A stretch of 21,813 nucleotides of DNA from a virus. The first letter of the stretch is position 1, and the number at the start of each line of letters is the position of its first letter. The stretch lies in the IMG/VR virus record IMGVR_UViG_3300009285_003110, positions 1 to 21,813 of that record; one strand, given 5' to 3'. Below are positions 3,303-19,647 of this stretch, one piece after another. The position numbers were made by a program, and so were the translations under genes. The notes beneath the pieces were generated by a model that was not told the DNA's origin, made no database searches, and was given only the letters and a program-made list of their open reading frames with translations.

Positions 3303-3878
3303 ATGGGACCTGACAACGAGCTCAACCCCGGCCCTACTCCCGACTACCCATTCCACGGCCCCAGCACTGCGTCCAGGGCCTGGCCTCGCATGGTCCCACC
3401 TCTGCCCCGCCATCAGCCCATGCAGGACCCGCCACCCGTCGCCTACGACGGCCCCACACCCATAGACCCACCTAAATCCCCGCGCAGGCGTGAACTCCGT
3501 CCTCCCACCCCCGGCCAGCAGCGCGCCATCGCCATCTGGGGTACTCGCCAGGTGCCAGCCGCTCCCGCCGTCGCAGCCATCCGCCAGTACTGCCGCTCCC
3601 TCACTCCCGAACTCATCGACCGCGCCCTCGCCATCATCCGCGACCCAGAGACGCCGCCTGCCGTGCAGATGGCCGGCATCCTCGGCATCGTGGACCGTGG
3701 GGGTGCGGCGCCGCGTAAGAGCGACGATACCCCGGAGACGCCCGGCCCAGACCTCGCCACCCTCATCCGCGGTGTGGCGCCGGCGGACCTAGCCGCGCTG
3801 GTGGAGCTCGCCAGGGCGGTGCGTGAGGCGAGGATGGAGGCCCAGGGCATCGTGGAGACGACGGCCACGGAGGGCTAG
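3303..3878 (+). CDS. Putative terminase small subunit, 191 aa
   Basis: The ATG at 3303 is preceded by GAGAGGA, and the stop at 3876-3878 abuts the next start. Residues 1-70 are Pro-rich and probably disordered, ending in a basic patch (SPRRRELRPP). Residues 85-135 are helical and include ELIDRALAIIRDPETPPAVQMAG, a pattern often seen in small-terminase and related DNA-binding phage proteins, followed by ILGIVDRGG. The C-terminal helices (DLAALVELARAVREARMEAQ) could mediate oligomerisation. Position at the head of the packaging module, upstream of terL, supports the call. The sequence alone is not diagnostic. The gene is strongly C-rich on the + strand, unlike the genes that follow. Confidence 0.55.
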   Translation: MGPDNELNPGPTPDYPFHGPSTASRAWPRMVPPLPRHQPMQDPPPVAYDGPTPIDPPKSPRRRELRPPTPGQQRAIAIWGTRQVPAAPAVAAIRQYCRSLTPELIDRALAIIRDPETPPAVQMAGILGIVDRGGAAPRKSDDTPETPGPDLATLIRGVAPADLAALVELARAVREARMEAQGIVETTATEG

Positions 3879-17748: not shown

Positions 17749-18624
17749 ATGGCCGTTGGGACGACTACTACCGGGTCGCTGGCGGATAGCCTAGACGACA
17801 TCGTCGCGTCCGCCCGTTCCCGCCGCGAGTATGACGGCGTGGTCACGCAACTCGTGGACAAGAAGACCCTTGACCCGAACACGGGCACGTCCTGGAAGGA
17901 AGCCCTGTTTGAGCAGCTTGAGGTCACGGCAGTCACCGAGCAGACCGAGAACGACAATGCCCAGCAATTCGTGGACAGCGCCATCACCGTCACGCCATCG
18001 ATGTTCCAGATCGTCACCTGTATCACGGACAAGGTGCGGCGCAACCTGAACCGCGCATCCCTCGCCCAGATGGGCAAACTCGCGGGTCAGGCCATGGTGC
18101 GCAACCAGGACGAGCAGGGGCTGACGGCCATGGACGGCTCGACGACCGTCCTTGGCACGGCGGGCGCCACCGTTACCACGAACCTGATTACCGCCGCGCG
18201 GTACCGCATCTCGTCGAACGCGACTGAGCGTGGAATGCCGCCCTACAACGCGGTGTTTCACGGCTACATCCTCAAGTCCCTCGCGAACGAGTTGACCGCC
18301 TCTGTGGGGAGCTCGGAAGTCACCAGCGGCATCACCGCCGAAGTGCTCAAGTCCGGGTTCAAACTCCCAATCTCCAGCGTGAACATCTACGAGGACGGGA
18401 ACGTCACCATCGACTCCTCGTCCGACGCCAAGGGCTTCGTCTTCGCGAAGGACGCTTGGATTCTCGTGCGCGGGTTGAACATCCGCACAGAGACCGAGCG
18501 CAAGCCTGGGCGCGGCGGTGGCGCCGACTTGGTCTACCTGACCGAGGAGTTCGCCTTCGGCGAGCGGTCTGCGGGCAACTGGTCCTATGAGATACTTGGA
18601 GATGCGGCCACGCCTACGTCGTAG
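17749..18624 (+). CDS. Major capsid protein, 291 aa
   Basis: The ATG at 17749 follows AAGGAGG, the strongest ribosome-binding site in this part and fitting for an abundant protein. The protein begins with a Thr/Ser-rich arm and a charged helix (LADSLDDIVASARSRREYDGVV), then segments that fit an HK97-fold protein: E-loop-like residues, long helix RNLNRASLAQMGKLAGQAMVRNQDEQGL, and a peripheral-domain region ending in FVFAKDAWILVRGLNIRTETERK. Typical length, position after the scaffold and the late-gene context support the call. There is no N-terminal protease or delta domain, in agreement with a separate scaffold gene. Confidence 0.82.
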   Translation: MAVGTTTTGSLADSLDDIVASARSRREYDGVVTQLVDKKTLDPNTGTSWKEALFEQLEVTAVTEQTENDNAQQFVDSAITVTPSMFQIVTCITDKVRRNLNRASLAQMGKLAGQAMVRNQDEQGLTAMDGSTTVLGTAGATVTTNLITAARYRISSNATERGMPPYNAVFHGYILKSLANELTASVGSSEVTSGITAEVLKSGFKLPISSVNIYEDGNVTIDSSSDAKGFVFAKDAWILVRGLNIRTETERKPGRGGGADLVYLTEEFAFGERSAGNWSYEILGDAATPTS

Positions 18625-18643
18625 GTAGATGCAAGCAAGCCAA

Positions 18644-18679
18644 CATGAGATACTGTTCTTAAATAGGGGGTGTCTCATG
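18644..18679 (+). promoter_or_regulatory. Hairpin sequestering the HNH gene start
   Basis: CATGAGATAC (18644-18653) pairs with GTGTCTCATG (18670-18679): ten RNA base pairs, one of them U-G, around a 16-nt loop. The loop holds TTCTTAAATAGGGG, and the GTG start codon (18670-18672) lies in the 3' arm. The structure would block initiation on long readthrough transcripts. The arrangement recalls hairpins that silence early translation of T4 homing-endonuclease genes. Confidence 0.65.
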
Positions 18680-19206
18680 ACGGCAACACTCTTGCCAAGT
18701 GGTGCCAGACGTGTGGGGTTATTCGCAGGAAGCAATACCTCCATGAGTACGAGAAGGGCAAACGGCGTGGCCAGTGCGTGGACTGCAAGAAAGACATCGC
18801 TGCTAGGTCGCTTAGGTGTCGGGTTTGCGACAACGTTTCTCGCAGTGAACGCTATACAGGCAAGGCCAACCCCAACTGGCAAGAGGGGCGGTCCAACAAA
18901 GACGGGTACGTCTATGTGCGAGTCAAGGAAGGGGCTCCGGGCAAAGGCAAGGGGGCATTCTACCGTGGCGAACACATCGTCGTGTGGGAACGGGCCAATG
19001 GCAAGCCGCTTCCGAAGGGATGGGTGGTTCATCACCTCAATGGGACGAAGGACGACAACCGCATTGAGAATCTTGTGGCTATGCCACGGCAGAACCACCA
19101 CTCTCACCCACGGGATGCACTCAAGGTCTACGAACGCCGCATCCGCGAGTTGGAGCAACAACTGAAGACTATCCAGCAACTGCGATTTAATCAGGGCAAT
19201 AGGTGA
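18670..19206 (+). CDS. Free-standing HNH homing endonuclease, 178 aa
   Basis: The frame has a stop at 18664, so GTG at 18670 is the first usable start. Residues 12-53 carry three CxxC pairs (C12/C15, C36/C39, C50/C53), probably a zinc-binding DNA-recognition head. Residues 70-145 hold the nuclease core: YVYVRV, GEHIVVWERANG, and H121-H122-L-N124-G...N130-R...N134, the classical HNH beta-beta-alpha metal motif. A charged coiled helix (YERRIRELEQQLKTI) ends the protein. Such genes cut related phage genomes lacking the insert and spread by repair. It is inserted between the major capsid gene and the next structural gene and is less G/C-skewed than either. All core residues are intact, so it is probably active. 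Confidence 0.88.
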   Translation: MSHDGNTLAKWCQTCGVIRRKQYLHEYEKGKRRGQCVDCKKDIAARSLRCRVCDNVSRSERYTGKANPNWQEGRSNKDGYVYVRVKEGAPGKGKGAFYRGEHIVVWERANGKPLPKGWVVHHLNGTKDDNRIENLVAMPRQNHHSHPRDALKVYERRIRELEQQLKTIQQLRFNQGNR

Positions 19207-19209
19207 CAC

Positions 19210-19647
19210 GTGGTCTCAGCATCAGCCTCGCGACGTGGGGTCTGGCCCATCACGACAATCCTGCTCCCGGACGAGTGGGGGTACCTGCTCTACGAGATTG
19301 ACGAGCCCAGTCCGGACGGGCGCGGGAAACATCGGTGGCAGGTCGTCCGCGTCGCGCGCAACGACGCACCGGCGGAGCACTGGACGGACCTCGGCCTGTC
19401 CGCTTCGTTCAAGGCCAACCAGTTTGAAATCCTGGGCGGCGTGGTGGACAAGGCGACAGGCCGGGCCATCCCGTGCAACACGGTGGCGGAACTCCAGGAC
19501 ATTGCCGACTGGATGCGGGGGGAGAAGCCGAAGCAGGTGGAACCCACCGACCTCCAGGGGCTTTGGCGCAACTACGTGGAGGAGCGCCATCGGCGCCGCC
19601 GCCACCAGAGCACATTCGGTACCTACGGACGTGTGGAGCGACGATGA
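19210..19647 (+). CDS. Hypothetical structural-region protein, 145 aa
   Basis: The GTG at 19210 follows AGGTGACAC. The N-terminal half is strand-rich (WPITTILLPDEWGYLLYEID, WQVVRVARNDA), the middle is mixed, and the C-terminus is helical and very basic (NYVEERHRRRRHQ). No family is recognised. The position after the capsid gene might suggest a head-completion or adaptor function, but nothing in the sequence shows that. The TGA overlaps the next ATG (ATGA). Confidence 0.65.
   Translation: MVSASASRRGVWPITTILLPDEWGYLLYEIDEPSPDGRGKHRWQVVRVARNDAPAEHWTDLGLSASFKANQFEILGGVVDKATGRAIPCNTVAELQDIADWMRGEKPKQVEPTDLQGLWRNYVEERHRRRRHQSTFGTYGRVERR

Follow-up and report, generated by a model that had tools for sequence, protein, structure and literature searches.

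The hairpin at 18,644–18,679 of the window, the complete 21.8-kb virus fragment (IMG/VR record; 21,813 nt) analysed here, is best explained as a translation lock inherited with a free-standing homing endonuclease gene (HEG) of the HNH type, located at the 3′-end of a capsid gene, with an internal promoter as bypass (estimated probability roughly 0.7). In intact copies of this arrangement, the −10 element of a sigma70-like promoter is contained in the hairpin, either in its 5′ arm or in its loop. Capsid mRNA reading through into the endonuclease gene would carry both arms, so that the Shine-Dalgarno (SD) sequence and AUG would be paired and the gene silent. RNA from the internal promoter would start in the loop, some 7 nt beyond the −10; lacking the 5′ arm, it would be translated. 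The copy in the window appears to have kept the lock, but its promoter is weak and a 5′ deletion disrupts the frame; it is probably decaying. Sequence comparison establishes the position and homology of the element, the placement of the promoter, the pairing with its compensatory changes, and the dependence of that pairing on the gene's own 5′ arm; a transcript start, repression, timing and homing are what we infer.

The capsid–endonuclease locus

The major capsid-like gene of the window (17,749–18,624, + strand; C-terminus …DAATPTS), the presumed neighbourhood of the endonuclease target, has a weak match to Pfam Phage_capsid_4. It can be aligned over its full length with the capsid genes of related loci, and shares 45% identity with the first of them. 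The stem begins 19 nt downstream of the capsid stop. It is followed by an HNH endonuclease reading frame of 178 codons from a GTG (18,670–19,206, + strand), which is probably damaged at its 5′-end; the next gene begins at 19,210. Its assignment to the HNH endonucleases in the first-pass annotation, which was made from the letters of the window alone, is borne out by an HNH_3 domain match (E = 4e−16, above cutoff) and by PHROG HNH families. An origin as a group I intron-encoded endonuclease was rejected, as no Rfam intron family was matched up to E = 1 and the capsid ORF has its own stop. Elsewhere in the window, a Type-P5 twister ribozyme match is found on the − strand at 1,944–2,000 (40.1 bits vs. 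a gathering score of 37.6). No DNA similar to the window was present in the phage collection searched, and neither near-identical relatives nor a close allele of the window itself were found.

Capsid and HNH searches recovered six other distinct loci in which a related HNH gene lies directly 3′ of the same capsid gene (L002 [= L003], L004, L005, L006, L235 [= L487] and L489), and all six capsids end in ATAPTS. The majority of about 80 other capsid loci have no HNH gene at this site. Some of them are empty there, and others have a small HNH-like ORF, which overlaps the capsid stop with its start or begins immediately behind it; the ORFs directly after the capsid stop in L170–L241 have the core HN instead of HH, and are possibly domesticated endonuclease remnants. 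The insertion found in L004 is missing from the alleles L197, L199 and L203, and these empty or scar alleles also lack the hairpin. L199 and L203 run through the insertion site as TAACTTTTAGCAGCC, while L197 has 11 extra bases (CATGACGCTAA) that exactly match the start of the L004 promoter block and look like the scar of a lost element. The HNH gene of L006 ends in ATVPTS-stop (3,455–3,477), resembling the ATAPTS-stop of the capsid, as if the target end had been duplicated behind the element. In L219, a LAGLIDADG-type ORF (3,400–3,579) lies 3′ of the same capsid gene with a TTGACA-N17-TACAAT promoter, and a hairpin formed by TTGTCTCGG and CCGAGACA surrounds its SD and ATG, which suggests the same device in another endonuclease family.

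Predicted pairing of the start region in read-through RNA

The 5′ arm CATGAGATAC (18,644–18,653, + strand) pairs with the 3′ arm GTGTCTCATG (18,670–18,679, + strand) through nine Watson-Crick pairs and one U-G, exactly as first described. The 16-nt loop between them (18,654–18,669) contains TAAATAGGGG and a predicted transcript start near 18,661, placed by its distance from the −10. Folding of 18,600–18,720, which the first-pass annotation had proposed as a check, gives a minimum free energy of −41.7 kcal/mol (z = −1.6), with this stem as the core of the structure. Within the window alone the stem is not unusual: stems of its class (10 or more pairs, no more than one of them G-U) number 14 in the window and 3–13 in eight shuffles. 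Its reality is decided by homologues, and comparison with these confirms the hairpin. A terminator was rejected as an explanation, since no U tract lies 3′ of the stem and the scan does not list it.

In each of the six relatives the SD falls inside a hairpin, as does the start codon in most. Five of them share the stem register of the window, with compensatory changes; the stem of L006 is in a different register and covers the SD. The covariation set comprised six distinct, related capsid-linked stems in the window's register, the window included. For pair counts the arms were joined without the loop and the register was fixed by hand; a MAFFT alignment of the whole stem-loop misplaced two gaps. 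In this set 91.7% of cells are paired, and the covariation score of 0.507 compares with 0.301 ± 0.058 after shuffling (0/500) and with at most 0.175 when the arms are slid. Three pairs have changed on both sides, so the lack of covariation that the first-pass annotation had named as counter-evidence did not occur. The window substitutes A-U for the C-G or G-C of other copies, and G-C for their U-A.

Masking of the SD and/or start in read-through RNA is also predicted from folding energies. The cost of opening the SD and start was calculated for two forms of each RNA, one extending upstream of the predicted transcript start and one truncated at it. In 15 HNH genes with a promoter the median cost was 14.6 kcal/mol in read-through RNA vs. 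4.2 kcal/mol in RNA from the gene's own promoter, compared with 4.9 and 3.3 kcal/mol, respectively, in 120 controls (viral genes of other kinds in which a perfect promoter, AGGAGG and ATG are comparably spaced). The difference between HNH genes and controls has p = 1.4e−6, although this and the other p-values are optimistic, as some of the sequences are related to one another and the promoter idea arose from part of the data on which it was then tested. The result held for assumed starts 5–9 nt beyond the −10, and when genes of similar GC were compared. When upstream parts were swapped among 18 HNH genes, the mean cost was 13.3 with the gene's own upstream part vs. 7.7 ± 0.7 with permuted ones (0/20,000 permutations). 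Control genes were less structured with their own upstream part (3.65) than with a foreign one (4.26). The swap reveals coevolution of the two arms, independently of any alignment. With its ATG at 18,677, the window ranks second of 18, with costs of 14.7 for the long RNA and 2.9 for the short one.

Of the HNH genes that have a promoter, 73% are locked, vs. 15% of those that have an SD but lack a promoter. Among the promoter-bearing HNH genes, L094 and L031 are not locked, and L007 and L008 are locked only weakly. Some genes other than HEGs are locked as well. The same promoter-in-hairpin layout occurs at non-endonuclease genes in L288, L336, L347 and L354, which encode a conserved MASAKPVKYPKMPTE protein and HicA-like small proteins.

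Predicted internal promoters and the 5′-end of the window copy

The relatives carry sigma70-like promoters whose −10 lies in the hairpin (5′ arm or loop): TTGACA-N17-TATAAT in L006, TTGACA-N17-TATGCT in L005, TTGACA-N17-TATACT in both L235 and L489, ATGACG-N17-TATACT in L004 and GTGATG-N17-TACAAT in L002. Strong promoters (at least 10/12 matches) occur at 21 of 148 HNH starts, where 2.1 would be expected from shuffles. The −10 lies 17–34 nt from the ATG in fifteen of these and exactly 6 nt from it in the other six. The latter form a second HEG layout (6/148), which has no SD and is probably transcribed as leaderless mRNA; it is seen, with a near-consensus promoter whose −10 ends 6 nt before the ATG, at the HNH starts of L089, L095, L099, L013 and L033. 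A scan of viral contigs for this leaderless-type layout also returned many unrelated genes, including GIY-YIG-like ones. An excess of extended −10 elements (10/15 vs. 50/120 controls) was not significant.

An internal promoter that would remove the 5′ arm is thus predicted to be strong in the relatives and weak in the window. The window has a degenerate candidate −35, TAGATG (18,626–18,631, + strand; 3/6), at the same 17-nt spacing as in the TTGACA relatives. The candidate extended −10 consists of TG (18,646–18,647) followed by GATACT (18,649–18,654, + strand), in the same stem register as the TATACT and TATGCT of the relatives. Together they form a poor promoter (7/12), and the promoter scan, from which this −35 is absent, reported none at the locus. 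The first-pass annotation had pointed to a T4-late-like core in the loop. A T4-late promoter was rejected, as TATAAATA is not enriched in the window and the relatives carry sigma70-like elements; its geometry is also wrong, since RNA starting from TTAAATA (18,659–18,665) would begin after the SD.

The SD of the window, AGGGGG (18,665–18,670, + strand), aligns with those of the relatives and lies 6 nt before an ATG in the 3′ arm (18,677–18,679, + strand). By homology to the relatives' starts, this ATG is the ancestral start codon, rather than the GTG at 18,670 that the hairpin had been said to trap. The GTG restores the HNH frame, but has AGGGG at zero spacing and no usable, spaced SD. In the capsid-linked relatives the HNH proteins begin MxA…CxxC…KRSDA from a well-spaced SD. 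The distance from the ATG to GCCAAGTGG (codons for AKWC) is 57–60 nt in the relatives and 17 nt in the window, which points to a deletion of about 43 nt with its junction at 18,690–18,694 (+ strand). The first CxxC knuckle and linker appear to have been lost, and the HNH core and later CxxC pairs are retained. The gene is probably not intact, and its ATG no longer reads into the HNH frame. Although an assembly error could in principle account for the missing nucleotides, the weak promoter and the frame-breaking 5′ deletion together suggest that the window copy is probably a decaying element. The idea of an I-TevI-like lock of the start region thus holds for the masked SD and start of the homologues and for the layout of an internal-promoter bypass, but not for the T4-late core, the GTG start or a working safety device in the window phage itself.

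A further feature of these promoters is a block resembling the 3′-end of the capsid gene. In the window, the putative homing-site-like block AGATGCAAGCAAGCCAACAT (18,627–18,646, + strand) lies between the −35 and −10, and the presumed homing-site region is the capsid 3′-end AGATGCGGCCACGCCTACGT (18,600–18,619, + strand). In a fixed-register comparison over seven copies, the 20 nt upstream of the −10 share a mean identity of 56% with the last capsid codons, vs. 41 ± 3% for permuted columns (0/500), and the L002 block matches the L235 capsid end at 17 of 20 positions. Only this pooled test was significant. Pairwise comparisons of each block with its own capsid end were not, apart from a 10-nt repeat in the window, and own pairs were no better than swapped ones. 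In the window, ATGAGATACT is present at the capsid end and again in the 5′ arm. The block could equally be an operator or a duplicated target.

Alternative readings and known systems

The inverted repeat could act as DNA, as a palindrome overlying the promoter to which the endonuclease or a phage repressor binds, with RNA folding incidental. The homing-site-like block in seven copies, the repeat of ATGAGATACT and the operator bound by I-TevI (PMC2988022) would fit such a site. We consider it unlikely. The copies differ in stem sequence yet remain paired, in part through G-U pairs, which are incompatible with a palindrome in DNA; the SD is covered in every case and the AUG in most, and the operator-like block lies mostly outside the stem. 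About as unlikely is a purely translational lock without an internal promoter, opened by temperature, a helicase or the ribosome finishing the capsid gene. The window copy has no good promoter and its stem lies close to the capsid stop, as this would predict, but the near-consensus promoters of the relatives have their −10 within the stem-loop, and lock and promoter are correlated across HNH genes. Gaps of 49–89 nt between capsid stop and ATG would also make opening by the ribosome inconsistent.

The window HNH protein might still be made, from GTG 18,670 or a leaderless start, in which case the lock would protect a functional, shortened enzyme. This is somewhat more plausible, although still improbable: the frame is open for 178 codons and keeps its HNH core and later CxxC pairs, but the spacing before the GTG is zero, the ATG with the good SD leads into a different frame, and no promoter places a start at 18,670. 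A chance stem in one phage is very improbable; stems of its class are common in the window, but the arm-swap and covariation tests both speak against chance. The inherited lock with an internal-promoter bypass remains our preferred reading.

The logic of this lock is that of I-TevI, and is known. In T4, the ribosome-binding sites (RBS) of I-TevI, I-TevII and I-TevIII are sequestered in read-through RNA, and RNA from an internal promoter is too short to fold (PMC2988022). The I-TevI promoter is in addition overlapped by an operator that resembles the homing site, with 15/20 matches to it (PMC2988022). The bypass of a start-region hairpin by an internal promoter is common to these genes and the present ones, but in T4 the ORFs (GIY-YIG or HNH) lie within group I introns and use T4 late or middle promoters, whereas those described here are free-standing HNH_3 genes downstream of a capsid gene, with a sigma70-like promoter. 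The same logic is seen in segB of T4 and mobE of Aeh1, free-standing HEGs with an RBS-masking hairpin (PMC2988022; PMC3014915). mobE is likewise an HNH gene, and its hairpin has been shown to lower translation (PMC3014915; PMC2988022). Both belong to T4-type phages, and mobE has been classed as a cassette that lacks a promoter (PMC2988022); in the present genes, the promoter lies within the hairpin, and the phages are unrelated by DNA search.

The ShiLan-domain hidden HNH endonucleases of mycobacteriophages also lie within phage genes, require independent translation and have similar HNH proteins. They are encoded out of frame inside a methylase gene, with leaderless initiation proposed and no promoter or hairpin lock reported (PMC11855218), in contrast to the promoter and hairpin lock described here. 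Five named laboratory phages with related HNH genes were checked, and the promoter-plus-lock layout was clear in none. In Mycobacterium phage Jabbawokkie, a very strong, perfect 15-pair hairpin (L503, 523–565) abuts the ATG of gp30, an annotated HNH endonuclease gene, and no promoter was recognised there.

Our literature search, which covered few subscription papers, found no report of such a lock outside T4-type phages or with sigma70-like promoters, and a lock with a sigma70 promoter, beyond the T4-like phages, appears to be a new form of the device. Tentatively, at somewhat less than even odds, the free-standing HNH HEGs of many non-T4 phages may share one cassette, probably evolved repeatedly, in which a host-type sigma70 promoter lies in a start-hiding hairpin and its −35 and −10 flank an operator resembling the homing site. 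Such genes would be expressed only from their own promoter, perhaps early and by the host polymerase, and would stay silent when carried on the plentiful capsid mRNA made late, a timing opposite to that in T4. More broadly, a regulatory trick known in detail from T4 and its relatives appears to recur in unrelated phages with ordinary bacterial-type promoters. If this is correct, read-through silencing is a general requirement for selfish endonucleases in essential operons, and its signature, a −10 paired with the gene's own SD or start, could serve to detect such elements and to forecast the timing of their expression.
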